Positions 600 to 11,297 of a stretch of DNA of 11,445 nucleotides are shown in pieces (the stretch's first letter is position 1; each line of letters starts with the position of its first letter). The stretch is from Treponema sp. (GTDB taxonomy: Bacteria > Spirochaetota > Spirochaetia > Treponematales > Breznakiellaceae), in the NCBI GenBank assembly GCA_031275035.1, contig JAISPH010000245.1, forward strand, positions 1-11,445, written 5' to 3'. Below the pieces are notes generated by a model. It searched no databases. It saw only the letters and a list, made by a program, of their open reading frames with translations, and was not told the DNA's origin. Made by a program: the position numbers and the translations under genes.

Positions 600-2144
600 T
601 CATCCCGGAGACGGCAGCGCTATCATGGCATCCCCCAGATCCGAGAGGTATCCCGATGCCTGATTATAGACTGCCATCAGCCTGTCGTAGAAGGCCATGT
701 TGGCAGGGATGGGAGAAACCCGTTCCTCGATAGTGTGCAGAGAGTCAATACGGTCAAAACCGCTCCACAGGCCGGTTCCCACCGCCGCACAGGCGGCGGC
801 TCCCAGGGCGGAAGCCTGTTGATCAACGTTGGATTTCAGAACCGTGGTCTTATAAATATCCGCATATATCTGCCTCCAGACGGGGCTCTTGCTTCCGCCC
901 CCGGCCAGGAGCATCTCATCGCTGATATCCGTCAACTCCCGCATTTTATCCAGACAAACCCTAAGGCTCATGGAAATGCCCTCCATCGAGGCCCGCAGCA
1001 TGTCGGCGCGGGTATGAACCAACTCAAGGCCGATAAAGGAACCCCGCAGGTTGTAACTCTTATCCATCGGCATACCGCCGCCGAGGCTGGGATTAAAAAG
1101 CAGCCGGTTTGCCCCCAGGGGGGATTGTAATGCCTCCCGGGTCATAAGCTCATATTCATCCCCGCCGGTTTTTTTTGCCTCCTCCTTCAGATCCCTGCAA
1201 AGGACATCCCGCATCCAGCGGAACGCAGTTCCTCCGGTGGTTACGCACAGGGCGGAGGCATAGTAACCCGGCACCACATGGGTAAAGACATAGGGCCTGG
1301 ACTTTTTATCAAGAAGCGGTTTTTGGGAGGAAACGGCAATCCAGGCGGAAGAACCAAGGTTGTTGTATACCCGCCCTTCCTTAAATGCTTTGGCGCCCAG
1401 GGCCATACATGCATTGTCCACCCCTCCCGCTACTACCTGTACGTTTTTATGGAGCCCTAAAATTTCCGCCGCCTCCGGCGTAATAGAACCGATTACTTCG
1501 GTGGAGGCGACAATCTCGGGAAAGATAGACCGGTCAAGCCCCATGGCGTCGATTAACTCCTGGGAATAATCCCACCGTAATAAATCCCACATGCCGCAGC
1601 CGGAGGAATAGGAAGGTTCGGAACAGATCCGGCCGGTTAATTTATAATTGATATAATCCTTGGAACCGATAAATTTTTCTATTTCGTTAAAGATCTGGGG
1701 CTCATTATCTTTATACCAGAGCAGCTTGAAGGCCGTATAGAAGGCAGGCGTAAAACCATTGCCGGTCTTCATGTACCAGGATTCTTCATCGAAATGAGAG
1801 AATACCGCTTCGGCCTGCTTAAAAGCCCGGCCGTCCGACCAGATTGGAATGCTTTCCTTGAGCAGTCCGCCCCCCTTGCCGATAAGCACCGGTACCAGGC
1901 TGTGCCCGGAAATGCCGCAGCAGGAGATGTCTTCTTTCGCTACCCCGGACTTTTCGACAAGCAGCCTGGTACTTTTGACAACGGCATCCCACCAGTCGCC
2001 GGGACGCTGCTCGTGCCATCCGTGGGCGGGGTATGCAGTATTATAGGCAATAAAAGTATCCGCAATACAGGCGCCATCGGCATCATAAAGAGAGGCCTTA
2101 TTGCCGCTGGTACCCAAATCCCAGGCAATGATCTTCTTACTCAT
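600..2144 (-). CDS. FGGY-family carbohydrate kinase (xylulokinase-like), kinase 1
   Basis: An ATP-dependent cytoplasmic sugar kinase of 514 residues, the usual FGGY length (about 480-520). The N-terminal phosphate loop WDLGTSGNKASLYD lies at residues 8-21. The WSDGRA segment is at 102-107. GGVDNACMA at 240-248 carries the expected catalytic Asp243. The C-terminal nucleotide-binding motif AGGGSKSPVWRQ is at 414-425. The start is fixed by AGGAGG 8 bases upstream (2153-2158). The gene overlaps the upstream aldolase by 8 bases, so the two are almost certainly co-translated. It is clearly paralogous to the kinase at 9765-11297 along its whole length. FGGY kinases usually act on ketoses or polyols such as xylulose, ribulose, rhamnulose or erythritol. 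The exact substrate cannot be assigned, and 'xylulokinase' would only be a family label. Confidence 0.93.
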   Translation of the reverse strand: MSKKIIAWDLGTSGNKASLYDADGACIADTFIAYNTAYPAHGWHEQRPGDWWDAVVKSTRLLVEKSGVAKEDISCCGISGHSLVPVLIGKGGGLLKESIPIWSDGRAFKQAEAVFSHFDEESWYMKTGNGFTPAFYTAFKLLWYKDNEPQIFNEIEKFIGSKDYINYKLTGRICSEPSYSSGCGMWDLLRWDYSQELIDAMGLDRSIFPEIVASTEVIGSITPEAAEILGLHKNVQVVAGGVDNACMALGAKAFKEGRVYNNLGSSAWIAVSSQKPLLDKKSRPYVFTHVVPGYYASALCVTTGGTAFRWMRDVLCRDLKEEAKKTGGDEYELMTREALQSPLGANRLLFNPSLGGGMPMDKSYNLRGSFIGLELVHTRADMLRASMEGISMSLRVCLDKMRELTDISDEMLLAGGGSKSPVWRQIYADIYKTTVLKSNVDQQASALGAAACAAVGTGLWSGFDRIDSLHTIEERVSPIPANMAFYDRLMAVYNQASGYLSDLGDAMIALPSPG

Positions 2145-2859
2145 CCGCGGTTCCTCCTAAAAACAGTTCTCCCCTTGCTTCCCTTTGCTTTGCCTCTTCC
2201 AGAATAGCCTGGGAGGATCGGGTTCCGATTCTGGCAGTTCCGGTGGCGATAACAGCCAGGGCGTCATCAAGCGTTCTGACGCCGCCGGCGGCCTTTACCC
2301 GCATACCGTCCGCGTGTTTGACCATGGTAATTAAATCGGAAATGACGGCCCCGCCGGGGGCATAACCGGTGGAGGTCTTGACGAAATCGACTCCTCCCTG
2401 CCTGCATATCCTGCAACACTGGATAATTTGTTCGGTTGAAAGGTAATAGTTCTCGAAGATGACCTTTAACAGGGCGCCGCCCCCATGGGCGCATTCCGCC
2501 GCCGCGGCGATCTCCTCTTCCACGTACCGGACTTCCCCGGAGAGAAACCTGGCATAGTTCATCACCATATCGACTTCCACGGCCCCCTTATCCAGGGCGT
2601 CTTTAATTTCAAAGAGCTTTGACTCTGTGGCGGCGGTTCCATGGGGAAAGGCAATAACGGTAGTGGACAGTACTTCGCTTCCCTTTAAGCTTTCTATGAC
2701 GACGGGCAGATCCGACGGCCTGACGCAGACCGAAACACAGCCGTATTGTCTGGCGGTATCACAGCCTTCTCTTACTTCTTTGATTGTCAGTTCCGGGCGC
2801 AGAAGCGAGTGATCCAGCGTAAAGGCTATATCAGCCACGGTGAGGGCACGCTTTCCCAT
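2137..2859 (-). CDS. deoC: Deoxyribose-phosphate aldolase (DeoC), aldolase 1
   Basis: A class I Schiff-base aldolase of 240 residues. The family cleaves 2-deoxyribose 5-phosphate to acetaldehyde and glyceraldehyde 3-phosphate in the cytoplasm. It has the canonical motifs: LDHSLLRP (15-22), CVSVCV (41-46), EVDMV with Asp97, FVKTSTG with Schiff-base Lys161, VKAAGGVR with Lys189, and the phosphate loop GTRSSQ (212-217). I chose the ATG at 2859 because GGGAGG (2864-2869) precedes it by 4 bases and the DeoC homology starts just after it. A longer frame extends upstream to 2940, but those residues are unlike the family and run through the promoter. This is the most orthodox of the three aldolases in the window. 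It is first in a two-gene operon with kinase 1. A kinase-aldolase pair fits sugar catabolism better than nucleoside salvage, since no nucleoside genes are present. Confidence 0.92.
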   Translation of the reverse strand: MGKRALTVADIAFTLDHSLLRPELTIKEVREGCDTARQYGCVSVCVRPSDLPVVIESLKGSEVLSTTVIAFPHGTAATESKLFEIKDALDKGAVEVDMVMNYARFLSGEVRYVEEEIAAAAECAHGGGALLKVIFENYYLSTEQIIQCCRICRQGGVDFVKTSTGYAPGGAVISDLITMVKHADGMRVKAAGGVRTLDDALAVIATGTARIGTRSSQAILEEAKQREARGELFLGGTADE

Positions 2860-2881
2860 TTGGCCTCCCTTGCATTTGTCT

Positions 2882-2910
2882 ACGATACCATGATCCCGGT
2901 ATGCTGTCAA
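2882..2910 (-). promoter_or_regulatory. Sigma70-type promoter for aldolase 1 and kinase 1
   Basis: Reading leftward, TTGACA (2905-2910) is followed after exactly 17 bases by TATCGT (2882-2887). This predicts transcription starting near 2875, with a leader of about 16 bases containing the ribosome site. The -35 box lies in the 11-base word TGTCAATAAAA (2905-2915), repeated at 2989-2999. Confidence 0.6.
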
Positions 2911-2941
2911 TAAAAACGTTAAGTTCCGGGGAAAAAACAAG

Positions 2942-2970
2942 TTGACACAGAAGTCATATCATGCTATGGT
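2942..2970 (+). promoter_or_regulatory. Sigma70-type promoter for the ABC importer
   Basis: TTGACA (2942-2947), a 17-base spacer and TATGGT (2965-2970) form a near-consensus promoter. It predicts a start near 2977 and a leader of about 45 bases before the permease ATG. It is divergent from the aldolase 1 promoter, with the two -35 boxes about 31 bases apart. Confidence 0.65.
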
Positions 2971-2993
2971 CATTATGTTATGACATAATGTCA
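2971..2993. promoter_or_regulatory. Candidate repressor operator over the importer start site
   Basis: Two overlapping perfect inverted repeats lie just after the -10 box: CATTATGT-TATG-ACATAATG (2971-2990) and TGACAT-A-ATGTCA (2981-2993). They cover the expected transcription start, the classic place for a repressor. The nearby GntR-type regulator is the obvious candidate ligand, but that link is inference. Related half-sites (GACATAAT, TTGACATAAC) recur before the third aldolase at 8966-8973 and 8987-8996. Confidence 0.5.
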
Positions 2994-3021
2994 ATAAAAC
3001 CGCAGTCATAGGGAATGTTTT

Positions 3022-4008
3022 ATGGAAACAGCAAAAAAAGACATAAAAAAGAACGACCATCGCATAGCCGATATTATAGCAAAACCGGAAGCCATGGTTG
3101 CGCTTGTTTTGGTTCTGCTCTGTCTGCTGTTGATCTTTCTTCGTCCGCTGTCCTTTCCCACCCCAAGAAATATTTTTAATGTTTTAAGGCAGTCGTCCCT
3201 GGTGGCTATCCTGGCGGTAGGCATGGGAATGGTGATAATCACCGGCGGCATCGATCTTTCGGTGGGTTCGGTAATAGCCTTCTCCGCCTGTATGAGCATG
3301 GCCTGTTACCGGGCCTTTGCCGTACCTCCCATAGTGGTCCTTTTTCTTGCCCTGGGGGGCGGACTCCTCATGGGAACGATAAACGGCCTCCTCGTATCCA
3401 AGCTGGGTATTCCCCCCTTCATCGTAACCCTGGGTATGTTGAGTGTCGGGAACGGCGCCGCCCTGGTAATATCCAACGGGAATCCCATCAAGTATCAGGC
3501 AAGCTGGGTTTCGGTATTCGGCGGGGGTTATATAGGACTTATGCCGGTAACCGTCCTGGTCATGGTGTTTGTACTGATCCTGGGCCATATCTTTGCCAAC
3601 TATACCCAGACAGGGAGAAACATCTATGCGGTGGGGAACAGCCAGCAGGCGGCGAAACTGTCGGGCATCTTCGTGGACCGGGTGATCATAACCGTTTATG
3701 CGATCACCGGATTCCTGGCCGGTCTCTGCGGCCTGATCCTGGTGGGCCAGATGGACAGCGGGGACCCTTCCTTCGGCAAGGGATATGAACTGGACGTTAT
3801 TGCGGCGGCGGTAATCGGCGGCATCAGCATGACCGGCGGCGAGGGCAATATACTGGGGGTTCTCCTGGGGGCCCTTCTCATGGGCGTATTAAAAAATCTC
3901 TTTATCCAGCTTGCGGTATCAGGGTACTGGCAGACCATAGTCCTGGGACTGGTAATCGTGGGGGCGGTGGCTATCGACTGTATCCGCAAAAAACGGGCGG
4001 CCCGCTGA
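3022..4008 (+). CDS. ABC sugar importer permease (RbsC-like)
   Basis: An inner-membrane permease of 328 residues in the branched-chain amino acid/ribose permease family (BPD_transp_2), working with the binding protein and ATPase encoded downstream. After a charged N-terminus there is a hydrophobic segment at about 25-40 and then a run of hydrophobic segments to the C-terminus, which ends IRKKRAAR. Family landmarks are GGIDLSVGS (75-83), the cytoplasmic loop NIYAVGNSQQAAKLSGI (200-216), and GYELDVIAAAVIGGISMTGG (254-273). Length matches RbsC (about 320). The ribosome site is weak (GGGA at 3011-3014). Being first in the operon, before the binding protein, is unusual. The sugar is not predictable from the sequence; ribose, xylose, galactose and AI-2 importers all use this permease type. 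Confidence 0.93.
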   Translation: METAKKDIKKNDHRIADIIAKPEAMVALVLVLLCLLLIFLRPLSFPTPRNIFNVLRQSSLVAILAVGMGMVIITGGIDLSVGSVIAFSACMSMACYRAFAVPPIVVLFLALGGGLLMGTINGLLVSKLGIPPFIVTLGMLSVGNGAALVISNGNPIKYQASWVSVFGGGYIGLMPVTVLVMVFVLILGHIFANYTQTGRNIYAVGNSQQAAKLSGIFVDRVIITVYAITGFLAGLCGLILVGQMDSGDPSFGKGYELDVIAAAVIGGISMTGGEGNILGVLLGALLMGVLKNLFIQLAVSGYWQTIVLGLVIVGAVAIDCIRKKRAAR

Positions 4009-4077
4009 ACCCCGTGAGGATCCATTTGGATTTTTGCCGGAATTTCCGGAAATATATTTTTATTTGAGGAGGAGATT

Positions 4078-5121
4078 ATGTTTAAGAAGGCGATAATCGT
4101 TGTTTTTGTTGCCGTGTTGAGTCTTTCCTTCCTTGCCGGTACGGTATTTGCCGCCGGCCAGCAGGCGGGTCCAAAGGGACCGATGACCCCGGCGGCCCAG
4201 ATAAAGGCCCCTCCGGGAAAGACGCTCCTGTCTCTGCCGGTGGATCAGGTATCGTCCAAACCCCTGCGGATTGCCGCCATCATGGTACAGAACAACCCCT
4301 TCGGCGTAGCGGTACTGCAGGGCCAGAATTTCGCAAAGCAGATTCTTGCGGACCGGAATTGTATCGTGGACCCCCTTTCTGTTCCTGACTTCGACGCCCA
4401 GAAATGGACCAGCGTTATCGACAACTGTATCGCATCGGGCTACAACGCCATCTGCGCCTTTGGAGTCTCCGATGCCCTGTCGCCGGTTATCAAAAGGGCG
4501 GCCGATGCGGGTATCCCGGTATATCTTTTTAACAGCCAGCTCAGCGAACCCCGGTATCATGTCGCATTTTACGGACAGGGCGGCGTTGACGGCGGCAGGC
4601 AGTGCGGCGAGGCGCTGGCGAAACTTCTGAACAATTCCGGCAAGTACGCCATTATCACCGGCGATTTCGCCGCCATCGGCCACGAACAGCGCCGGACCGG
4701 AGCCCGGGAAGTACTGGACAAGATTCCCGGCATACGGCTTGTGGGCGAAGTGATGAACAACGATAAAGCCGAAGAAGCCTATAACCATGCGGCCAACTTT
4801 ATCACCGCCAACCCGGATCTGAAGGGCATCTATGTAACCGCCGGCGGCCCCTCCGGAGCGGCTAAGGCGGTGGAAGACGCCGGAATGAAGGGCAAGATCT
4901 TCGTGGTATGCCATGATGTGCTCGCCGAATCGGCTCCCTATGTGGGCAGCGGTACGATCAGCGCATGCCTGGACCAGGATCCCTTTAATCAGGGATATCA
5001 GTGCGTGATCGATGCTTTCAACCAGCTGGTAACCGGACAGAAGCCTCCCGCCGAAACCTATTACAAAGGCGTCATGGCGACTCCCGATACCGTAAAACAG
5101 CTTTTCCCGGAACTTTTCTAA
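4078..5121 (+). CDS. Periplasmic sugar-binding protein of the ABC importer (RbsB-like)
   Basis: A Sec-exported solute-binding protein of 347 residues in the periplasmic-binding-protein type 1 fold (Peripla_BP_4 group). The signal peptide is MFKK, a hydrophobic core at about 5-21, and likely signal peptidase I cleavage after VFA (residue 25). There is no lipobox cysteine, so it should be soluble in the periplasm, not a lipoprotein. The mature protein opens with a low-complexity linker (about 26-60). The binding fold then begins at KPLRIAAIMVQNNPFGVAVLQG, with later landmarks AGIPVYLFNS (144-153) and the hinge-side segment near GIYVTAGGPSGAAKAVED. A strong GAGGAGGAG (4066-4074) before the ATG suggests high expression, as usual for binding proteins. 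It lies 69 bases after the permease. The ligand is unknown. Confidence 0.92.
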   Translation: MFKKAIIVVFVAVLSLSFLAGTVFAAGQQAGPKGPMTPAAQIKAPPGKTLLSLPVDQVSSKPLRIAAIMVQNNPFGVAVLQGQNFAKQILADRNCIVDPLSVPDFDAQKWTSVIDNCIASGYNAICAFGVSDALSPVIKRAADAGIPVYLFNSQLSEPRYHVAFYGQGGVDGGRQCGEALAKLLNNSGKYAIITGDFAAIGHEQRRTGAREVLDKIPGIRLVGEVMNNDKAEEAYNHAANFITANPDLKGIYVTAGGPSGAAKAVEDAGMKGKIFVVCHDVLAESAPYVGSGTISACLDQDPFNQGYQCVIDAFNQLVTGQKPPAETYYKGVMATPDTVKQLFPELF

Positions 5122-5125
5122 GTAT

Positions 5126-5159
5126 CACAGCTTCCCTGCGGACCCGCGGGGAAGCTGTG
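5126..5159 (+). terminator. Strong hairpin just after the binding-protein gene
   Basis: CACAGCTTCCC (5126-5136) pairs perfectly with GGGAAGCTGTG (5149-5159). Four more pairs, GCGG/CCGC, form inside around an AC turn. It begins 4 bases after the stop codon. No T-run follows, so it is more likely a partial terminator or an mRNA 3'-end protector that raises binding-protein output over ATPase output than a full intrinsic terminator. Confidence 0.55.
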
Positions 5160-5175
5160 TAGAATGCATTAGCGT

Positions 5176-5204
5176 TAACCGCGGGAGACTGTCTTCCGCG
5201 GTTA
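5176..5204 (+). terminator. Second hairpin before the ATPase gene
   Basis: TAACCGCGG (5176-5184) pairs with CCGCGGTTA (5196-5204). The stem continues inward through AGAC/GTCT across one G-T wobble, leaving almost no loop. The following TCTATCTATC is only mildly T-rich. With the hairpin at 5126-5159 it fills most of the 118-base gap, so transcription into the ATPase is probably reduced. Confidence 0.5.
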
Positions 5205-5239
5205 TCTATCTATCGAAGAACAGTATCAGGCGGTTTTCC

Positions 5240-6766
5240 ATGGCCCAGAATGTAATTTGCAGGATCAGCAATATTACAAAGACCTTTCCCGGCGTTACAG
5301 CTTTAAAGAATATCACCATCGAAATTGAACGGGGCAAGGTCCATGCGGTGGTTGGTGAAAACGGAGCGGGAAAATCAACGCTGATGAACATTCTCTCCGG
5401 CGTATATCATGCCGATGAGGGAACCGTAGAATTTGAGGGCGCCCCCGTATCCTTCGACCAGCCCCGGGCGGCCAACCTTGCGGGGATAGCCATGATTCAC
5501 CAGGAGCTTTCCCTGGCCCAGCACATGTCGGCGGCGGAAAATATCTTTGAAGGCCGCATGCCCAAAAATAAGCTGGGGTTTATTGACCGGAAAAAAATGT
5601 ACCGGGACTGTGAAAGCCTTCTTTCCCGTCTTGGCGTTACCCATATCAATCCTAAAACCCTGGTTAAAAATTTAAGCGTATCCGAAATGCAGCTTCTGGA
5701 AATTGTAAAGGCCCTGTCCCTTGAGGCCCGGATGCTGATCATGGATGAACCGACTTCTTCCCTTACCACGGGGGAGATCGACTTCCTCCTTAAAATCGTA
5801 GACAAACTCCGCAGCGAAGGAGTCGCCACCCTGTACATTTCCCACAAACTGGAAGAAGTCATGTATATCGCCGATACCATTACGGTGCTCCGGGACGGTC
5901 AGCATATCGCCACCAGACCCAAGGCCGAGATGGATGAAAAAACCATGATAAACCTGATGGTAGGCCGGGACTTTAACACGGTGGTACACCGGGACTACAT
6001 GACCAGCTACGGGAACAAAGCCCCCCTTCTGGAAGTGAACAATCTTTCAGATATGAACGGCAGGGTGCGGAATGTTTCCTTCAACCTGTACCCCGGAGAG
6101 GTACTGGGGCTGACCGGCCTGGTCGGGGCGGGCAGAACCGAACTGCTCCAGTCCATTTTTGGCGCCCAAAAAATAAAATCAGGAACCATACTGATGAACG
6201 GCAAAAAGGTTGTCATCAAACATCCCCGGGACGCCATCAATCTGGGCATGGGGCTTATCCCGGAGGGACGAAAACTCCAGGGGCTCTTCCTGAAGATGCC
6301 TGTAGAAGACAATATGATTATGGTGTATCTAAGGCGCCTCTGCAATAAATTCGGCCTTATTAAAAAGGGCAAGACCCGGGATCTTGTTGTAGAGTATGTA
6401 GATAAGCTGGCGATCAAGACCCCTTCGGTTCACCAGATTGTCAACAACCTCTCCGGAGGAAATCAGCAGAAAACTATCGTAGCCCGGTGGCTTATGAACG
6501 ACCCCAAGATCCTGCTTATGGATGAACCCACCCACGGTATCGACATCGGAGCCAAGGCGGAAATTTACCGGATCATCGACGAGCTTTCCAAAGCGGGCGT
6601 TTCGGTCATTCTTCTTTCCTCGGAACTGCCGGAGGTGCTTTCCCTCTGCGACCGTATCATGGTCATGCACCACGGGGAGATACGGGGTATTCTGTCCCAC
6701 GGCGAAGCGGATCAGGTAAAGATCATGTCCTTTATTCTGGAAAAAGCTGAAAACGCAAGCGCCTAA
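5240..6766 (+). CDS. ABC sugar importer double ATPase (RbsA/MglA-like)
   Basis: The cytoplasmic energy unit of the importer, 508 residues with two fused nucleotide-binding domains. Domain 1 has Walker A GENGAGKS (39-46), Q-loop IHQE (86-89), a divergent signature LSVSEMQ (145-151) and Walker B LIMDEP (166-171). Domain 2 has the degenerate P-loop GLVGAGRTE (293-301) with Arg in place of Lys, signature LSGGNQQK (404-411) and Walker B LLMDEPTHGID (425-435). This asymmetry is normal for the RbsA/MglA/XylG group, in which only one site is fully active. Length fits the family (about 500). The start is supported by homology; the ribosome site is poor (AGGCGG at about 5228-5233, 6 bases off). Last importer gene, convergent with the GntR gene 32 bases beyond. 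Confidence 0.94.
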   Translation: MAQNVICRISNITKTFPGVTALKNITIEIERGKVHAVVGENGAGKSTLMNILSGVYHADEGTVEFEGAPVSFDQPRAANLAGIAMIHQELSLAQHMSAAENIFEGRMPKNKLGFIDRKKMYRDCESLLSRLGVTHINPKTLVKNLSVSEMQLLEIVKALSLEARMLIMDEPTSSLTTGEIDFLLKIVDKLRSEGVATLYISHKLEEVMYIADTITVLRDGQHIATRPKAEMDEKTMINLMVGRDFNTVVHRDYMTSYGNKAPLLEVNNLSDMNGRVRNVSFNLYPGEVLGLTGLVGAGRTELLQSIFGAQKIKSGTILMNGKKVVIKHPRDAINLGMGLIPEGRKLQGLFLKMPVEDNMIMVYLRRLCNKFGLIKKGKTRDLVVEYVDKLAIKTPSVHQIVNNLSGGNQQKTIVARWLMNDPKILLMDEPTHGIDIGAKAEIYRIIDELSKAGVSVILLSSELPEVLSLCDRIMVMHHGEIRGILSHGEADQVKIMSFILEKAENASA

Positions 6767-6798
6767 GATTCCAAAACGTCCCGCCAGGGCCGGATGAT

Positions 6799-7509
6799 TT
6801 ACCGTCCCGTGGTCTTGACCTCAAACTGATACCGGTCCGCCCGCATGGTACTTATATCGCAGGTTACAGGCCTTCCATTCTGATAGGTAATCCGGCGTAT
6901 CTCTAAAAGGGCCGATCCGGCTTTAATGTTCAGCATCTGCGATTCTGCAAAATCCGCATTTTTGGCGAAAATGGTATCTGCGGAAGAATCTATAATAATA
7001 TCGTATTCAGATTCCAGAAATTTATAAAAGCGGAAAATTTTTCCTGTTTTTTCATCAAGTCCCGGTACTGCATTCACACTAAGATAGTTCAGCAATATGG
7101 CTGTGGGAACAGCATCCGCCGAAAGCACCCGCTGTATCCGGTAAAGTCCCGCGTTTTCTTTTACTCCAAGTTTTTCCGCTATATGCAGAGGAGCCTCTAT
7201 CCGGTCTATGTAAATATCTTTAATAGTTACCTCATAGCCCTTCTGCTGCAAAGTATCGGATACCGAGGTTACCCGGTTCAAACTTTGGGTATACTGGTAA
7301 TCCAGTACCCTGGTACCCCGGCCCTGTTTTACTTCGATATACCCGTCGGAGACAAGTATTTCCATCGCTTTACGGATGGTCGTCCGTGAGACTCCGTAAA
7401 TATTCTCAAGCTGGTCTTCGGTGGGCAAAAAATCGCCGGCCATATATTCGCCGGTGGTAATACGTTTTCTCAGTTTAAAATACACATCCTGGTATATCGG
7501 ATTTTTCAC
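6799..7509 (-). CDS. GntR-family (HutC/UTRA) transcriptional regulator
   Basis: A DNA-binding regulator of 236 residues. The N-terminal winged helix-turn-helix (about 5-70) shows the classic pattern FLPTEDQL (27-34), YGVSRTTIRKAMEIL (38-52) and the wing KQGRGTRV (61-68). The rest (about 80-230) fits the UTRA effector domain, including the YRIQRVL strand and the late LEIRRITY-NGRPVTCDISTMRADRYQFE stretch. UTRA regulators usually bind a sugar phosphate and release the operator. The start is GTG at 7509, with AAGAGG about 8-10 bases upstream. It is convergent with the importer and divergent from aldolase 2, so it is the natural local regulator. Candidate operators are the palindromes at 2971-2993, 7564-7584 and 8076-8097, but these do not share one clear consensus. 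Confidence 0.92.
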   Translation of the reverse strand: MKNPIYQDVYFKLRKRITTGEYMAGDFLPTEDQLENIYGVSRTTIRKAMEILVSDGYIEVKQGRGTRVLDYQYTQSLNRVTSVSDTLQQKGYEVTIKDIYIDRIEAPLHIAEKLGVKENAGLYRIQRVLSADAVPTAILLNYLSVNAVPGLDEKTGKIFRFYKFLESEYDIIIDSSADTIFAKNADFAESQMLNIKAGSALLEIRRITYQNGRPVTCDISTMRADRYQFEVKTTGR

Positions 7510-7563
7510 AACCTTGCCTCTTAATATCAGCGTACACAGGGGAGAAACGTTAATGGACTTGTT

Positions 7564-7584
7564 CGATAACCCGGTTGGTTATCG
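7564..7584. promoter_or_regulatory. Inverted repeat upstream of the GntR gene, possible autoregulatory operator
   Basis: CGATAACC (7564-7571) and GGTTATCG (7577-7584) are perfect inverted arms around 5 bases. The site is 55 bases upstream of the GTG start of the regulator. A second short palindrome, CGGACT-AA-AGTCCG (7585-7598), abuts it. The position fits autoregulation, but no binding consensus confirms it. Confidence 0.4.
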
Positions 7585-7620
7585 CGGACTAAAGTCCGGC
7601 GCAAGTCCTTTTTAAGCGGA

Positions 7621-7652
7621 AGCTGTTCGGAAACTGAAGTTTCCGAACAGCT
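7621..7652. repeat. Perfect 15-base-arm hairpin (terminator-like or dispersed repeat)
   Basis: AGCTGTTCGGAAACT (7621-7635) and AGTTTCCGAACAGCT (7638-7652) are exact reverse complements around GA. CTATTATTTTT follows on the + strand, so it could work as an intrinsic terminator. However, it lies upstream of both flanking genes, where no known transcript ends. Its apex AAACTGAAGTTT resembles the apex of the hairpin at 9023-9054, which suggests a dispersed hairpin repeat. Confidence 0.55.
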
Positions 7653-7744
7653 CTATTATTTTTCCAAATATACAGTAATTCTATTTTTGTTTCAATTATA
7701 CAATATCCGGTTATACATATCCGGTCAGAAAGTACAAGTAAAGG

Positions 7745-7900
7745 GAAGCCCTGGGGATATCTGGGGACGGGCTTTGGCTTTTTCCCCGCCTGGGACAGCA
7801 TCGCAACTGCGGGCGGCAGCTTCGCCGCCGGCATGTTCGAAAACTGCTCCGTCGCCGCGTTTACCATGCCGGGTTCCGGGGGTCCCCCGAAAAAACCGCT
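7745..7900 (+). pseudogene. GC-rich island with a short coding-like remnant
   Basis: Within an otherwise AT-rich 613-base spacer this stretch is GC-rich. In one + frame it reads as plausible protein (GKPWGYLGTGFGFFPAWDSI, then ATAGGSFAAGMFENC and VAAFTMPGSGG), with no start codon, ribosome site or family I recognise. The 20 bases at 7851-7870 match aldolase 2 at 8237-8256 at 19 positions in the same reading phase (VAAFTMP in both). It may be a decayed fragment of an aldolase paralogue or of something unrelated. The rest of the spacer (7655-7744 and 7901-8039) is AT-rich and shows only a small hairpin at 7961-7980. Confidence 0.25.
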
Positions 7901-8039
7901 AATTTATTGTAATATAAACAATTACGACAAAAAGATTTTCTCCACGGGGTAAAAAAAGCCCTGAAAACTGCATTTTTCAGAAATTCCCTGAAGAAAAAAC
8001 AGGTAAAATTCGGAATTCCCAAAATTTGTATAAAAAATG

Positions 8040-8068
8040 TTGACGGCAATAGATCATTATATTATCAT
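8040..8068 (+). promoter_or_regulatory. Sigma70-type promoter for aldolase 2
   Basis: TTGACG (8040-8045), a 17-base spacer and TATCAT (8063-8068) match a vegetative promoter. The predicted start near 8075 lies at the edge of the 22-base palindrome that follows. The surrounding DNA is very AT-rich. Confidence 0.6.
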
Positions 8069-8075
8069 AAAATAA

Positions 8076-8097
8076 CCGAAAGATAATTATCTTTCGG
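8076..8097. promoter_or_regulatory. Perfect 22-base palindrome between promoter and start of aldolase 2
   Basis: CCGAAAGATAA (8076-8086) is immediately followed by its exact reverse complement TTATCTTTCGG (8087-8097). It lies directly after the predicted transcription start and 25 bases before the ATG. As DNA it is an ideal dimeric operator; as RNA it could form a leader hairpin near the ribosome site. Its sequence differs from the operator candidate at 2971-2993, so it may serve a different regulator. Confidence 0.55.
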
Positions 8098-8122
8098 CAT
8101 CTTGTATATTTATGGTGGATGT

Positions 8123-8824
8123 ATGCCTTTATCCCATGCCGAAATCGTTCGCATGATCGATGTCAGTTGTGTCAGGACCGACGTAACCCGTGCAGAACTG
8201 GAACAGGTTGCGGCGGCGGCAGTCAATTACCGCTTTGTCGCCGCCTTTACCATGCCCTGTTATAACGAAGCCCTGGGCAAGCTGCTTAAAGGTTCGGAGG
8301 TGCTGCTTGGGGGAACTGCGGGTTTCCCTTCGGGGGCGGATACCATCGATCAGAAAAGGGACTGCGCCAAGTATATGAAATCCATAGGCTGCGATGAGCT
8401 TGACATGGTGATCAATGTGGGCACTCTGAAATCGGGCGGGGATCAGTATGTCTACGATGATATAAAGGCGGTCATCGGCGCCGCTTATCCTATCCCGGTT
8501 AAAGCCATTCTGGAATGCGCCTATCTTTCGGATGAAGAAATTACGCGGGCCTGTAACATAGCCGTCGAGGCCGGGGCCGCCTTTGTTAAATCGGGAACAG
8601 GCTGGGCTGCCAGACCAACCACGGTGGAAATGATCAGGATAATGAAAAGCGCCGTGGGGAACCGGGCCCAGGTTAAGGCGGCGGGGGGCATACGATCCCT
8701 GGCGGTTCTTGAGGAGATGTACGACGCCGGGTGCCGGAGATTCGGCATCGGCCTGCATTCGGCGCTTGGCATATTAAAGGAGGCTTATCAACGGGAAGGC
8801 AAATCTTTTGAGGGGATAAATTAG
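8123..8824 (+). CDS. DeoC-like class I aldolase with altered pocket, aldolase 2
   Basis: A cytoplasmic aldolase of the DeoC family, 233 residues. It keeps the catalytic set: ELDMVINVG with Asp94, VKAILE (126-131), FVKSGTGW with Schiff-base Lys156, and VKAAGGIR with Lys185. It departs from true DeoC in places that shape the substrate site. The N-terminal LDHTLL-type motif is IDVSCVRT (12-19), the CVxVCV strand is FVAAFTMPC (38-46), and the phosphate loop is FGIGLHSA (207-214). It therefore probably acts on a different phosphorylated substrate. I chose ATG 8123 (GGTGGA at 8114-8119, close spacing) because a decayed copy at 8933 matches from exactly this ATG. TTG at 8102 is an alternative. It stands alone between its own promoter and the remnant. 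Confidence 0.85.
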   Translation: MPLSHAEIVRMIDVSCVRTDVTRAELEQVAAAAVNYRFVAAFTMPCYNEALGKLLKGSEVLLGGTAGFPSGADTIDQKRDCAKYMKSIGCDELDMVINVGTLKSGGDQYVYDDIKAVIGAAYPIPVKAILECAYLSDEEITRACNIAVEAGAAFVKSGTGWAARPTTVEMIRIMKSAVGNRAQVKAAGGIRSLAVLEEMYDAGCRRFGIGLHSALGILKEAYQREGKSFEGIN

Positions 8825-8862
8825 CGTGGACAGGCCGGCTTTGCCTGTGAATTATGTTATCC

Positions 8863-8933
8863 AATTGACTGCCGCTGCCTGTTCGGGGCCGATATTTGAT
8901 CATGCGGATGGTTTCGGCATGAGATAAGATCAT
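8863..8933 (-). pseudogene. Inverted, decayed copy of the 5' end of aldolase 2
   Basis: Reading leftward from an ATG at 8933 the frame begins MILSHAETIRMI, against MPLSHAEIVRMI in aldolase 2. The DNA agrees as well, with CATGCCGAAA and CGCATGATC identical. Further in, GAACAGG (8878-8884) and GCGGCAGTCAATT (8863-8875) both match aldolase 2 (8198-8229), but with bases lost between the blocks and the frame shifted. Nothing beyond codon 35 or so of the parent can be traced. This is a truncated paralogue with internal deletions, facing away from aldolase 3. Confidence 0.72.
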
Positions 8934-8950
8934 AGTCCCGTTTGACGGTA

Positions 8951-8996
8951 TTGGCTATTTGTCAAGACATAATTACATATTATTTCTTGACATAAC
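8951..8996 (+). promoter_or_regulatory. Possible promoter and operator half-sites for aldolase 3 and kinase 2
   Basis: TTGGCT (8951-8956), 17 bases and TACATA (8974-8979) are a modest promoter. The region also holds TGTC-AA-GACA (8961-8969, approximately), GACATAAT (8966-8973) and TTGACATAAC (8987-8996). These repeat the half-sites of the candidate operator at 2971-2993, consistent with control by the same repressor. TTGACA at 8987-8992 is an alternative -35, but no good -10 follows it. Confidence 0.35.
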
Positions 8997-9022
8997 CGAT
9001 AAACATGGAGGACAATATCCGG

Positions 9023-9054
9023 GAACCCCTAAAAACTGAAGCTTTTAGAGGTTC
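9023..9054 (+). repeat. Leader hairpin before aldolase 3
   Basis: GAACCCCTAAAA (9023-9034) pairs with TTTTAGAGGTTC (9043-9054) with one mismatch, around an 8-base loop ACTGAAGC. It ends 32 bases before the aldolase 3 ATG, in the expected 5' leader. The apex AAACTGAAG is shared with the hairpin at 7621-7652. Confidence 0.5.
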
Positions 9055-9086
9055 ACATCCATAAAATCCAACCGGAGGATCTAACC

Positions 9087-9761
9087 ATGACTGCTCAGGA
9101 AGCCGCCAGGCTGATCGATATTAGTGCGGTACGTACCGCCCATACCCTGCCGGACATTGTAAACATCGTGAACATCGCCAAGGAGTACCGTTTTATCAAT
9201 GTCCATTCCCTTCCCTGCTGGACGGCCACAGTCCGGGAACTGCTTGCGGGGGAACCGGACATCTATGCGGGGGCTCCCGTGGGCTTCCCGGGAGGCGCCC
9301 ACAAGACCGAGATCAAGCTTCTGGAGGCGGAACATCTGATAAAGGACGGCGTTCAGGAGATGGATATTGTGATGAATGTGGGCCGCTTTAAAAACCGGGA
9401 ATACGATTATGTGCTGGACGAATTAAGACAGATAGTCGCCGTTACCCCAAAGCAGGTGCGGACCAAGGTAATTATAGAGATAAACGCCCTTACCGATGCG
9501 GAGATCGACAAGGCCTGCGAACTGGTTCCCCTGTCGGGGGCGGAATTTATCAAGACCGGTACCGGCTGGATTCCCGGACCGGTAAACATTCCCCGTATTG
9601 CCCGGATCAGGGAGCTGACCCGGGGCAGGATAAAGGTCAAAGCCTCCGGGGGCATTCGTACCAGGGACGAATTTGAACAGCTTGCCGCCCTGGGGGTTGA
9701 GCGTTTCGGGATCAACCTGCAGTCGGCTTTGGAAATTGTTTCTTCCTATCCCAAGAGTTAA
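9087..9761 (+). CDS. DeoC-like class I aldolase with altered pocket, aldolase 3
   Basis: A 224-residue DeoC-family Schiff-base aldolase, cytoplasmic. Catalytic residues are present: EMDIVMNVG with Asp93, TKVIIE (126-131), FIKTGTGW with Lys156, and VKASGGIR with Lys185. Like aldolase 2 it has an IDxSxVRT motif (10-17) instead of LDHTLL, YRFINVHSLPC (34-44) instead of the CVxVCV strand, and FGINLQSA (208-215) instead of the usual phosphate loop. The two thus form a subfamily apart from aldolase 1. The start is clear: GGAGG (9074-9078) lies 8 bases before the ATG. The stop is 3 bases before the kinase 2 ATG, so the pair is one operon and translationally coupled. It probably cleaves the product of that kinase; the substrate is not known. 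Confidence 0.87.
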   Translation: MTAQEAARLIDISAVRTAHTLPDIVNIVNIAKEYRFINVHSLPCWTATVRELLAGEPDIYAGAPVGFPGGAHKTEIKLLEAEHLIKDGVQEMDIVMNVGRFKNREYDYVLDELRQIVAVTPKQVRTKVIIEINALTDAEIDKACELVPLSGAEFIKTGTGWIPGPVNIPRIARIRELTRGRIKVKASGGIRTRDEFEQLAALGVERFGINLQSALEIVSSYPKS

Positions 9762-9764
9762 GCC

Positions 9765-11297
9765 ATGGAGTATGTCATTGCCTACGATCTGGGGACCGGG
9801 GGCTTAAAATCTTCAATTTTTGATGAACGGGGCATTTCCGTTGGCAGTGATTTTAAGCAGTGTGAAACGTTCTATCCAGAGCCGGATTTCCGGGAACAGC
9901 GGCCCGGCGACTGGTGGGATATGTTTACCGCCGGTACCAGGGATCTTCTGCAAAAAACCGGGATGCCGGTTAAGGATATTGCCGCCGCGGCCTGTTCCGG
10001 GCACAGCCTTGGGGTGGTGCCCATAGGAAAGGACGGCCGGGTCCTGGCGGAGTATGTGCCCATCTGGTCCGACGCCCGGGCGTCCAAACAGGCACGGGAA
10101 GTCTTTGCCCGGATCAAAGAGGAAGAATGGTACCTCAAGACAGGCAACGGCTTTCCCGGTCCCCTCTATGCGGCCTTCAAGATCCTCTGGTATAAGCAGA
10201 ATCGTCCCGATCTGTACGAAGAGGCCGCTTATTTTATCGGAACCAAGGATCTGCTCAATTACCGCCTGACCGGGATGATCGGAACCGATTATTCCTACGC
10301 CTCGGGCAGCGGCGTCTACGATCTTATTAAATGTGATTACGACAGGGACTATATTGAAGCCTTCGACCTGGACCCGGCAAAGTTTCCGCCCCTCTATGAA
10401 TCCTCTGAAATTCTTGGAACCATCAAACCGGAGATTGCCGCAGGGCTGGGACTTCCCCCGGAATTGAAAATTGCCGCAGGGGGCGTGGATAATGCCTGCA
10501 TGGCGGCCGGCGCGGGATGTGTCGAGGACGGGATGGCCTATACCTCTTTGGGGACATCTTCGTGGATAGCGGTTTCAACCCATAAGCCGGTGCTGAATTA
10601 CAAAACCAAGCCCTATGTATTCAGCCTGCTTATCAAGGGAATGTATACTTCGGCGGAATCAATCTTTTCCGCGGGGAATACCTTCAGGTGGGTACGGGAT
10701 ACGCTTTGCCCCGATTTGGTTGAAAAAGAGAAGGCCGGAGGAGAGGATGCGTATAAGGTCATGGACAGGCTTGCCCGGAAATCCGTGCCCGGAGCCAACG
10801 GTCTCTTCTTTATTCCTACCCTTGCCGGGGGAACCGCCCTGGACAGATCAGTCAATGTTAAGGGCGCCCTGGCGGGACTGGATCTAAAACATACCCGGAA
10901 CGATATTATCCGCGCCGCCCTTGAGGGGGTCTGCTTCGGTCTGAGAATCGCCCTGGATGAACTAAAAAGAAACGCCCGATTCTCCGGGGAAATGCTGATC
11001 GTGGGAGGAGGCTCCAAGAGCCCCTTCTGGCGGCAGCTTTTTGCAGAGATTTACGGCCTTGACATTACCGAATCGGCGGTGGGAGAAAACGCCGGTTCCC
11101 TGGGGGCCATGGCCTGCGCCGCCATCGGGGCGGGCTTCTGGAAGGATTATACCCCGCTGATTCAACTGAACAAGCCCGTCAACACCATAAGGGGGGATCC
11201 AAAAAACAGAGCCCTTTACGATGCGGTCTACCGGATATTCTGCAAAGTCAACGAAAGTCAAAGCGACATCGCCGAATACCGGGAACGGACCGGCTAA
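9765..11297 (+). CDS. FGGY-family carbohydrate kinase (xylulokinase-like), kinase 2
   Basis: A sugar kinase of 510 residues and a full-length paralogue of kinase 1. Landmarks: N-terminal phosphate loop YDLGTGGLKSSIFD (7-20), EQRPGDWWD (44-52), WSDARA (101-106), GGVDNACMA (239-247) with catalytic Asp242, and C-terminal VGGGSKSPFWRQ (413-424). The motif spacing is almost identical to kinase 1. The DNACMA and WYxKTGNGF segments are shared, while the loops facing the sugar differ, so the two may take related but different substrates. There is no strong ribosome site before the ATG, which lies 3 bases after the aldolase 3 stop; translation is probably coupled. Substrate unassigned: pentuloses, deoxyketoses, polyols and AI-2-like compounds are all phosphorylated by FGGY relatives. 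Confidence 0.93.
   Translation: MEYVIAYDLGTGGLKSSIFDERGISVGSDFKQCETFYPEPDFREQRPGDWWDMFTAGTRDLLQKTGMPVKDIAAAACSGHSLGVVPIGKDGRVLAEYVPIWSDARASKQAREVFARIKEEEWYLKTGNGFPGPLYAAFKILWYKQNRPDLYEEAAYFIGTKDLLNYRLTGMIGTDYSYASGSGVYDLIKCDYDRDYIEAFDLDPAKFPPLYESSEILGTIKPEIAAGLGLPPELKIAAGGVDNACMAAGAGCVEDGMAYTSLGTSSWIAVSTHKPVLNYKTKPYVFSLLIKGMYTSAESIFSAGNTFRWVRDTLCPDLVEKEKAGGEDAYKVMDRLARKSVPGANGLFFIPTLAGGTALDRSVNVKGALAGLDLKHTRNDIIRAALEGVCFGLRIALDELKRNARFSGEMLIVGGGSKSPFWRQLFAEIYGLDITESAVGENAGSLGAMACAAIGAGFWKDYTPLIQLNKPVNTIRGDPKNRALYDAVYRIFCKVNESQSDIAEYRERTG

Follow-up and report, generated by a model that had tools for sequence, protein, structure and literature searches.

The 11,445-nucleotide stretch of Treponema sp. 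DNA analysed here (GenBank assembly GCA_031275035.1, contig JAISPH010000245.1), referred to as the window, contains nine intact genes, identified from open reading frames and family profile matches. At each end lies a sugar kinase of the FGGY family next to a class I aldolase of the deoxyribose-phosphate aldolase (DERA, DeoC) family, and the two pairs point in opposite directions. Between the pairs are a third aldolase, a GntR-UTRA regulator, and an importer of the CUT2 family with an ATPase, binding protein, and permease of the RbsA/B/C type. This layout, with one importer and one regulator between two kinase-aldolase pairs, had been described in an initial annotation, and it is borne out by the open frames and family matches. 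We propose, with a probability of about 0.55, that the locus is a catabolic system for a polyol or ketose that consists of two parallel kinase-aldolase pairs. The features of the window are as follows.

600–2144, minus strand: K1, FGGY sugar kinase, 514 residues (Pfam FGGY_N 179.4 bits, FGGY_C 102.5 bits; tree placement; motifs SGHS, PIWSDxR, TGNGF, GGVDN)
2137–2859, minus strand: A1, DERA-family class I aldolase (TIGR00126 193.3 bits; Cys47, KTSTGY, Arg at the Ser238 position)
2970–2983, no strand: candidate regulator site TCATTATGTTATGA in the divergent promoter region of A1 and the permease
3022–4008, plus strand: importer 1 permease, RbsC-like, CUT2 (Pfam BPD_transp_2 148.3 bits)
4078–5121, plus strand: importer 1 substrate-binding protein of a rare family (Pfam Peripla_BP_4 168.6 bits)
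5240–6766, plus strand: importer 1 ATPase, RbsA/XylG-like, with two ABC domains (Pfam ABC_tran, two stretches)
6799–7509, minus strand: GntR-UTRA regulator (Pfam GntR 74.5 bits, UTRA 109 bits)
8054–8067, no strand: candidate regulator site TCATTATATTATCA upstream of A2
8123–8824, plus strand: A2, DERA-family aldolase (TIGR00126 180.1 bits; KSGTGW, Phe at the Cys47 position)
8825–8942, no strand: probable deletion junction (contig overlap and alignments to a Treponema relative)
8960–8992, no strand: inverted repeat TGTCAAGACATAAT / ATTATTTCTTGACA upstream of A3, largely kept in the Treponema relative
9087–9761, plus strand: A3, DERA-family aldolase (TIGR00126 156.6 bits; KTGTGW, His at the Cys47 position, Asn at the Ser238 position)
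9765–11297, plus strand: K2, FGGY sugar kinase, 510 residues, from the clade of K1 (Pfam FGGY_N 162.2 bits, FGGY_C 100.3 bits)

The reading frames of K1 and A1 overlap by 8 bases, A3 and K2 are separated by 3 bases, and A2 and A3 by 262 bases. Neither a sugar isomerase nor a nucleoside enzyme was found among the nine window genes scanned with Pfam and curated models, in agreement with the initial annotation. Scans of the window with Rfam and for tRNAs gave no matches.

Aldolases and kinases of the locus

All three aldolases score above the 117.3-bit cut-off of the curated annotation model TIGR00126 (deoC), which names them deoxyribose-phosphate aldolases; A2 was scanned with one surplus residue at its start. 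A3 has no match to the Pfam DeoC family. The sequence identity is 35% between A1 and A2, 35% between A2 and A3, and 30% between A1 and A3. A tree built from 69 DeoC proteins groups A2 and A3 in one clade of 49 sequences (support 100/100), composed of an A2 branch (23 sequences, 98/98), an A3 branch (25 sequences, 88/78, with a core of 22 sequences, 100/97), and one sequence outside both. A1 forms a clade of three with sequences from Blautia and the Treponema relative (100/99). The tree thus agrees with the initial description of two aldolase types and a third gene, A2 and A3 being members of one deep clade and A1 of another. The aldolase sequences were reduced from 103 frames to 68 by removing identical tails; loci L115 and L116 and two divergent paralogues from locus L016 were left out of the tree, and the DERA of Escherichia coli was kept once, as EcDeoC.

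With E. coli DERA as the ruler, equivalents of D16, D102, K167, and K201 are present in A1, A2, and A3. The canonical pocket residues Cys47, Ser169, and Ser238 are replaced to different extents: A1 has Cys, Ser, and Arg, A2 has Phe, Gly, and Gly, and A3 has His, Gly, and Asn. The residues at the Ser238 position, in the phosphate loop, were read by eye from the sequence tails, because the alignment broke there. In DERA, C47 lies at the base of the cleft, approximately 5 Å away from K167, and S238 and K172 are located at the substrate phosphate (PMC7671976). The pocket of A1 is near-canonical, with Cys47 and KTSTGY. Compared with E. coli DERA, A2 and A3 have substitutions at positions 18, 20, 47, 169, 172, and 238. 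Every tabulated sequence of the A3 branch has His at position 47, where the later sequences from L138 and L139 read VHTLP, and those of the A2 branch have Phe or another residue. Most sequences of both branches contain KTGTGW where E. coli DERA reads KTSTGK. Judged from the sequences, these pocket changes may alter the specificity of A2 and A3. Two A3-related loci have unusual genes. A DeoC-like gene directly after the A3 homologue of L016 (10721–11407) has a Cys aligned to the Schiff-base Lys position and is possibly not an aldolase, and in L012 (3172–4659) the A3 homologue occupies the last part of an open frame of 495 residues, perhaps through fusion to the preceding gene.

The aldolases share the TIGR00126 family and the catalytic Lys/Asp set with the DERA (EC 4.1.2.4) of the deo operon. 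However, in E. coli the neighbours of deoC are deoA, deoB, and deoD, which are absent among the nine window genes, and the aldolases of the window are linked to kinases; the initial claim that this is not the textbook deoxyribonucleoside pathway therefore stands. The match of all three aldolases to the deoC model, and the retained Cys47 and KTSTGY of A1, would fit a different route, in which the FGGY kinase acts on a 2-deoxy or other deoxy sugar, either imported or formed by dehydration of a polyol, and true DERA chemistry then breaks the phosphorylated sugar down to glyceraldehyde 3-phosphate and either acetaldehyde or propanal. This deoxy-sugar route is possible but rather unlikely, as the pockets of A2 and A3 are changed. 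The known bacterial deoxyribokinase is of the PfkB type, which also counts against it. Furthermore, the nine FGGY functions given in Table 1 of PMC3245297 have ketoses, polyols, or gluconate as substrates.

K1 and K2 each contain the FGGY_N and FGGY_C domains and are 46% identical across 501 aligned positions, which confirms that they are full-length paralogues, as initially annotated. In a tree of 55 FGGY kinases they belong to a clade of 33 sequences (100/98), or 34 with one long-branched sequence (100/99). The clade leaves out all eight E. coli reference FGGY kinases, including XylB and LsrK, the branches of which are long. Frames shorter than 400 or longer than 600 residues, and loci from a whole-genome scan of Blautia schinkii and Faecalicatena contorta, were dropped from this tree. 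The motifs PIWSDxR, TG[NSG]GF, G[ST]KD, and GGVDN[AS]CMA are common to 33 of the 34 clade sequences, and SGHS to 27 of the 34; none of the five occurs in any of the 21 sequences outside the clade. Both K1 and K2 retain the GGVDN motif.

XylB (TIGR01312) is the top-scoring named model for both kinases, as it would be if the locus contained two ordinary xylulokinases and housekeeping DeoC copies that adjoin them by chance. However, the scores of 332.1 bits for K1 and 300.8 bits for K2 do not reach the cut-off of 380.25, both kinases read SGHSL where E. coli XylB reads GQMHG, and the pairing recurs in other genomes. Because the cut-off is missed and the tree places E. coli XylB outside the clade, ordinary xylulokinase activity appears less likely, and we consider the chance arrangement very improbable.

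The initial annotation had also considered a signalling molecule like autoinducer-2 (AI-2). A CUT2 importer together with an FGGY kinase resembles the lsr gene set for uptake and processing of AI-2 in outline, and a DeoC/LacD-superfamily protein is a further part of lsr-like gene sets. However, LsrK is outside the kinase clade, the autoinducer-2 kinase model gives 207.5 and 181.5 bits for K1 and K2 against a cut-off of 528, and the LsrB model gives the binding protein 37.8 bits against a cut-off of 384. The kinases and binding protein of the window are not LsrK and LsrB, and uptake of an AI-2-like signal is the least credible of the explanations considered.

Recurrence of the kinase-aldolase pairing

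A search with K1 alone (E ≤ 1e-110) covered 781 genomes, 398 of Bacillota and 383 of Spirochaetota. Up to three candidates were scored per genome for K1, and up to five for the binding protein of importer 1, so the match counts are lower bounds. The K1 search identified at least 20 places: at least 3 in two Bacillota genomes and at least 17 in 14 Spirochaetota genomes. According to a tblastn recount of the contexts, a DeoC gene is located within 2.8 kb at 17 of the 20 listed places and within 0.35 kb at 16 of them; among the matches listed, these are 3 of 3 in Bacillota and 14 of 17 in Spirochaetota. When the seven places from genomes G001, G005, and G006, the loci of which had been found first by an aldolase scan, are set aside, 10 of 13 listed places are paired, and when five genomes met in the aldolase search are also set aside, 5 of 8. 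Two of the 17 paired places (in G407 and G472) have a third DeoC motif, KTTTGV. As a control, the whole genomes of B. schinkii and F. contorta yielded 60 FGGY matches and 9 DeoC matches. Three of the 60 FGGY matches lie less than 3 kb from DeoC, and all three are clade kinases of loci L007 and L004. The pairing is not due to chance, and its absence from related genomes, by which the initial annotation could have failed, is refuted.

A second set of 49 loci, containing 51 DeoC genes of what is called here the W type, comes from searches that used A3, K1, and deoC-family sequences, and is not a random sample. Among its members are the window, the two contigs of the Treponema relative (L001 and L097), and two near-identical Eubacterium loci (L035 and L036). 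An A3 scan of a species-genome collection gave 36 loci, of which L034 has no full aldolase frame and is outside the 49. A clade kinase, defined by at least 40% identity to K1 or K2, is located within 10 kb at 36 of the 49 loci and within 3.6 kb of 36 of the 51 DeoC genes. The loci are distributed over eight phyla: Spirochaetota, Bacillota, Atribacterota, Chloroflexota, Planctomycetota, Actinomycetota, Synergistota, and Pseudomonadota. The phyla were taken from record titles and taxonomy lines, with plasmid matches included, and many of the records are metagenome-assembled genomes (MAGs).

Importers and regulator in the window and in a Treponema relative

The closest relative found is the Treponema MAG Im510_bin16 (genome G005), in which the locus is divided between two contigs. 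Such Treponema MAGs presumably originate from termite guts, which is our reading of isolate names rather than the result of a tool. The first contig (L001) encodes proteins 92% identical to A3 and 91% identical to K2. On the second contig (C72, L097), the protein identities are 94–95% for the importer, 93% for K1, 89% for A1, 83% for the GntR regulator, and 73% for A2. At the DNA level, most of the locus is 88–90% identical to that of the relative, the regulator 82%, and A2 74%. The segment of the regulator and A2 (6797–8823) is thus less conserved than both flanks, as if A2 had been replaced or were evolving faster. Beyond K1, L097 (10434–13555) carries genes for a rhamnulokinase-like FGGY protein, for a protein resembling class II aldolases, and for one resembling 1-phosphofructokinase; in L141, a rhamnulokinase-like/FucA-like pair adjoins the DeoC-FGGY pair.

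Exactly 119 identical bases are common to the end of C72, when reverse-complemented, and the beginning of L001; the title of the record contains 'k119', which points to an overlap in the assembly graph. The gene order of the joined contigs is K1-A1 / permease-SBP-ATP / GntR / A2-SBP2-ATP2-permease-permease-SDR-A3-K2, where SBP and ATP denote substrate-binding protein and ATPase. The relative therefore has a second importer (SBP2, ATP2, and two permeases) and an SDR-family dehydrogenase between A2 and A3, with the SDR directly before A3-K2. Positions 8943–9021 of the window, and those from 9064 on, still align to the sequence upstream of A3 in the relative, and positions 8825–8942 are unmatched. 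The order A2-SBP-ATP-permease-permease-SDR is the same in the Actinomycetota MAG locus L022, the proteins of which are 70% (SDR), 58% (ATPase), 43 and 38% (permeases), and 41% (SBP) identical to those of the relative. The simplest reading is that the strain of the window has probably lost the second importer; a misassembled window and a wrong join of the two contigs of the relative are conceivable alternatives. This reading weakens the argument from one importer. The initial annotation had taken the single importer to mean that one family of compounds enters; in the relative, the half containing A2, A3, and K2 has a second importer and a dehydrogenase. The kinase-aldolase pairs of the initial interpretation are real and recurrent, and its single-importer premise and the AI-2 proposal are not supported.

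The binding protein of importer 1 is rare: matches were identified in 1 of 398 Bacillota genomes (E ≤ 1e-60) and in 4 of 392 Spirochaetota genomes (E ≤ 1e-50), the latter with identities of 94, 53, 39, and 38%. Relatives with identities of 52–57% adjoin kinase-aldolase pairs in three Atribacteria MAGs. Searches of solved structures returned generic DERA, FGGY, and CUT2 matches and no close relative of the binding protein; therefore, the substrate cannot be read from the importer.

The pattern TCATTATRTTATSA occurs exactly twice in the window, at 2970 upstream of importer 1 and A1 and at 8054 upstream of A2, and is present at both corresponding places in the Treponema relative. With two mismatches allowed, the mean in shuffled sequences is 0.22, and two matches were reached in 3 of 200 shuffles. 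Because the pattern was drawn from those same sites, TCATTATRTTATSA is a candidate site of the GntR regulator only. An extra inverted repeat is located at 9023–9054, between the two stretches upstream of A3 that match the relative. Short repeats that are shared with several places of the relative, and inverted repeats, are located at 330–374, 7552–7608, 7609–7655, and 9023–9054; one of the inverted repeats is a perfect 15-nucleotide pair at 7621–7652. These repeats and inverted repeats are perhaps REP-like elements.

Substrate class and proposed pathway

The genes that accompany the 49 W-type loci were labelled by BLAST at 1e-12 rather than with curated models. A CUT2 ATPase is present at 26 loci, and an SDR, MDR, iron, or glycerol dehydrogenase at 28. 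By class, there are SDR genes at 14 loci, MDR genes at 12, iron alcohol dehydrogenases at 5, OYE-type reductases at 8, TIM-barrel isomerase-like genes at 10, psicose-epimerase-like genes at 3, and a glycyl radical enzyme with its activase at 2. It has to be considered that the aldolases, which catalyse a reversible reaction, join an aldehyde to a triose phosphate instead of breaking a sugar down. However, the importer, sugar kinases, and local GntR regulator of the window, and the CUT2 ATPase at more than half of the loci, indicate uptake and breakdown, and the condensing direction is highly improbable.

In locus L007 of B. schinkii, epimerase and dehydrogenase genes precede a related importer, A1-K1, a DUF4432 gene, and A3-A2-kinase-GntR. 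The epimerase and the dehydrogenase pass the models for D-psicose 3-epimerase (369.9 bits, cut-off 300) and the GolD/DthD dehydrogenase (321.4 bits, cut-off 286). The spirochaete locus L135, which contains importer 1, has an epimerase-like gene below the cut-off (194.7 bits) and two SDRs. The surroundings of an A3-like DeoC and a clade kinase on pSymB of Sinorhizobium meliloti include an importer, SDRs, a 'D-threitol dehydrogenase', and a glycerol dehydrogenase. Klebsiella has an A3-like DeoC with His47 and an FGGY kinase beside alsE and a permease, and deletion of the permease of this psicose locus in Klebsiella pneumoniae impaired growth on psicose (PMC6020474). Taken together, these contexts and the psicose permease result favour ketoses and polyols. 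Of the substrate classes named initially, a polyol-derived ketose and a deoxy sugar are supported as likely, the ketose being our first choice and the deoxy sugar our second.

The deoxy-sugar route is kept open by two spirochaete loci, L104 (8728–11858, the same place as L018) and L141 (16344–19001), in which genes for a PFL/dehydratase-type glycyl radical enzyme and an activase adjoin the aldolase-kinase pairs; such enzymes could make deoxy sugars from polyols. Moreover, the iron alcohol dehydrogenases would fit the removal of acetaldehyde. However, glycyl radical enzyme genes occur at only these two of the 49 loci; the enzymes pass the cut-off of no named model, and the L104 activase passes only that of a general subfamily.

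The genes present and their genomic context, the preserved catalytic residues, the clades to which the proteins belong, and the recurrence of the pairing lead us to infer a reaction, an order of steps, and a substrate class for the polyol or ketose system. The compound taken in by the CUT2 importer would be a sugar or sugar alcohol, or one closely related to these. A dehydrogenase of the SDR or MDR type, which is present in relatives and not in the window, sometimes together with a ketose 3-epimerase, would convert it to a ketose, which the FGGY kinase would phosphorylate. The DERA-family aldolase would form a Schiff base through the Lys167 equivalent and cleave the phosphorylated ketose to give a triose phosphate and a second small product, either an aldehyde or a ketone; in some relatives, this product may be reduced by iron-containing alcohol dehydrogenases. 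A1 may work with K1, and A2 and A3 with K2, perhaps on epimers or chain-length variants. The recurrent kinase-DeoC pairing thus probably serves to split an uncommon sugar or sugar alcohol.

Several observations weigh against this interpretation. The known donor of DERA is acetaldehyde; a ketose-type donor for the enzymes described here is presumed. The window itself contains neither a dehydrogenase nor an epimerase. Among the K1 matches listed, 3 of 20 have no DeoC in reach: one on a 12-kb contig (G458:C181), one on a 3.8-kb contig with 460 bases to one side (G465:C153), and one, 36% identical, 478 bases from a contig end (G420:C229). No clade kinase is found within 10 kb at 13 of the 49 W-type loci; four of the 13 have another FGGY kinase, and several are at contig ends. 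The Klebsiella kinase is outside the clade, and in L115, the record from K. pneumoniae, it reads as two separate frames; in the experiment on that locus, the permease alone was tested, not the DeoC or the kinase (PMC6020474). The contexts vary, with OYE, Gfo/Idh, KDPG aldolase, and glycyl radical enzyme genes, and therefore different loci may use different substrates. Four Eubacterium barkeri loci (L098, L099, L100, L111) have DeoC genes of other types with a different FGGY kinase within 1.1 kb, and in Blautia L107 such a kinase lies 8 kb away; different FGGY kinases accompany 5 of 9 contexts of other-type DeoC genes, and none is found in 4 of 9. The DeoC-FGGY pairing is therefore a wider theme, of which the type in the window is one well-marked branch.

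Several aldolase or kinase loci contain further genes. Varying KDPG-aldolase-like, cupin glucose-6-phosphate-isomerase-like, shikimate-dehydrogenase-like, and phosphoglycerate-dehydrogenase-like genes, partly named by eye, are present in L003, L004, L008, L017, L027, L112, and L163. In L098 (8581–14230; E. barkeri, the genome of L035), four DeoC paralogues with other motifs are located beside an FGGY kinase and apparently split transketolase genes, labelled by eye.

Among known systems, the fuc- and rha-type operons also combine an FGGY kinase with an aldolase for a phosphorylated ketose, and in E. coli fucO adjoins fucA. By contrast, their aldolase is of class II (FucA/RhaD), of which none was found among the nine window genes scanned, and the kinases of the window are apart from FucK and RhaB. 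The Klebsiella psicose locus has a similar DeoC, with His47 and KTSTGW, followed by an FGGY kinase; it differs in the clade of the kinase and in that AlsE, a ribokinase, and a permease resembling fucose symporters take the place of an ABC importer (PMC6020474). The SPU microcompartment loci, including those of Atribacteria, place a DeoC-type aldolase in a proposed catabolic setting (PMC4207490), but no shell protein, RpiB, or aldehyde dehydrogenase is present among the nine window genes scanned. A DeoC-FGGY catabolic module was not found described in the open-licence literature searched, which is weak evidence of absence.

More tentatively, and with less than even confidence, we suggest that the W-type DERA and SGHS-type FGGY clades are partners in an undescribed pathway of eight phyla, in which the kinase acts first and the class I aldolase then cleaves the phosphate of a ketose or deoxyketose, using a donor that is not acetaldehyde. 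The donor specificity would be new, in a pocket shaped by His or Phe at position 47, Gly169, and Trp172. DERA is a much studied biocatalyst. If the proposal is correct, aldolases that use new donors would be available from a natural clade in which the pocket is re-shaped and a kinase is dedicated to the aldolase, and a likely misannotation as deoxyribose-phosphate aldolase would be corrected. It would also point to a route by which anaerobic bacteria of guts and sediments use uncommon sugars and polyols.

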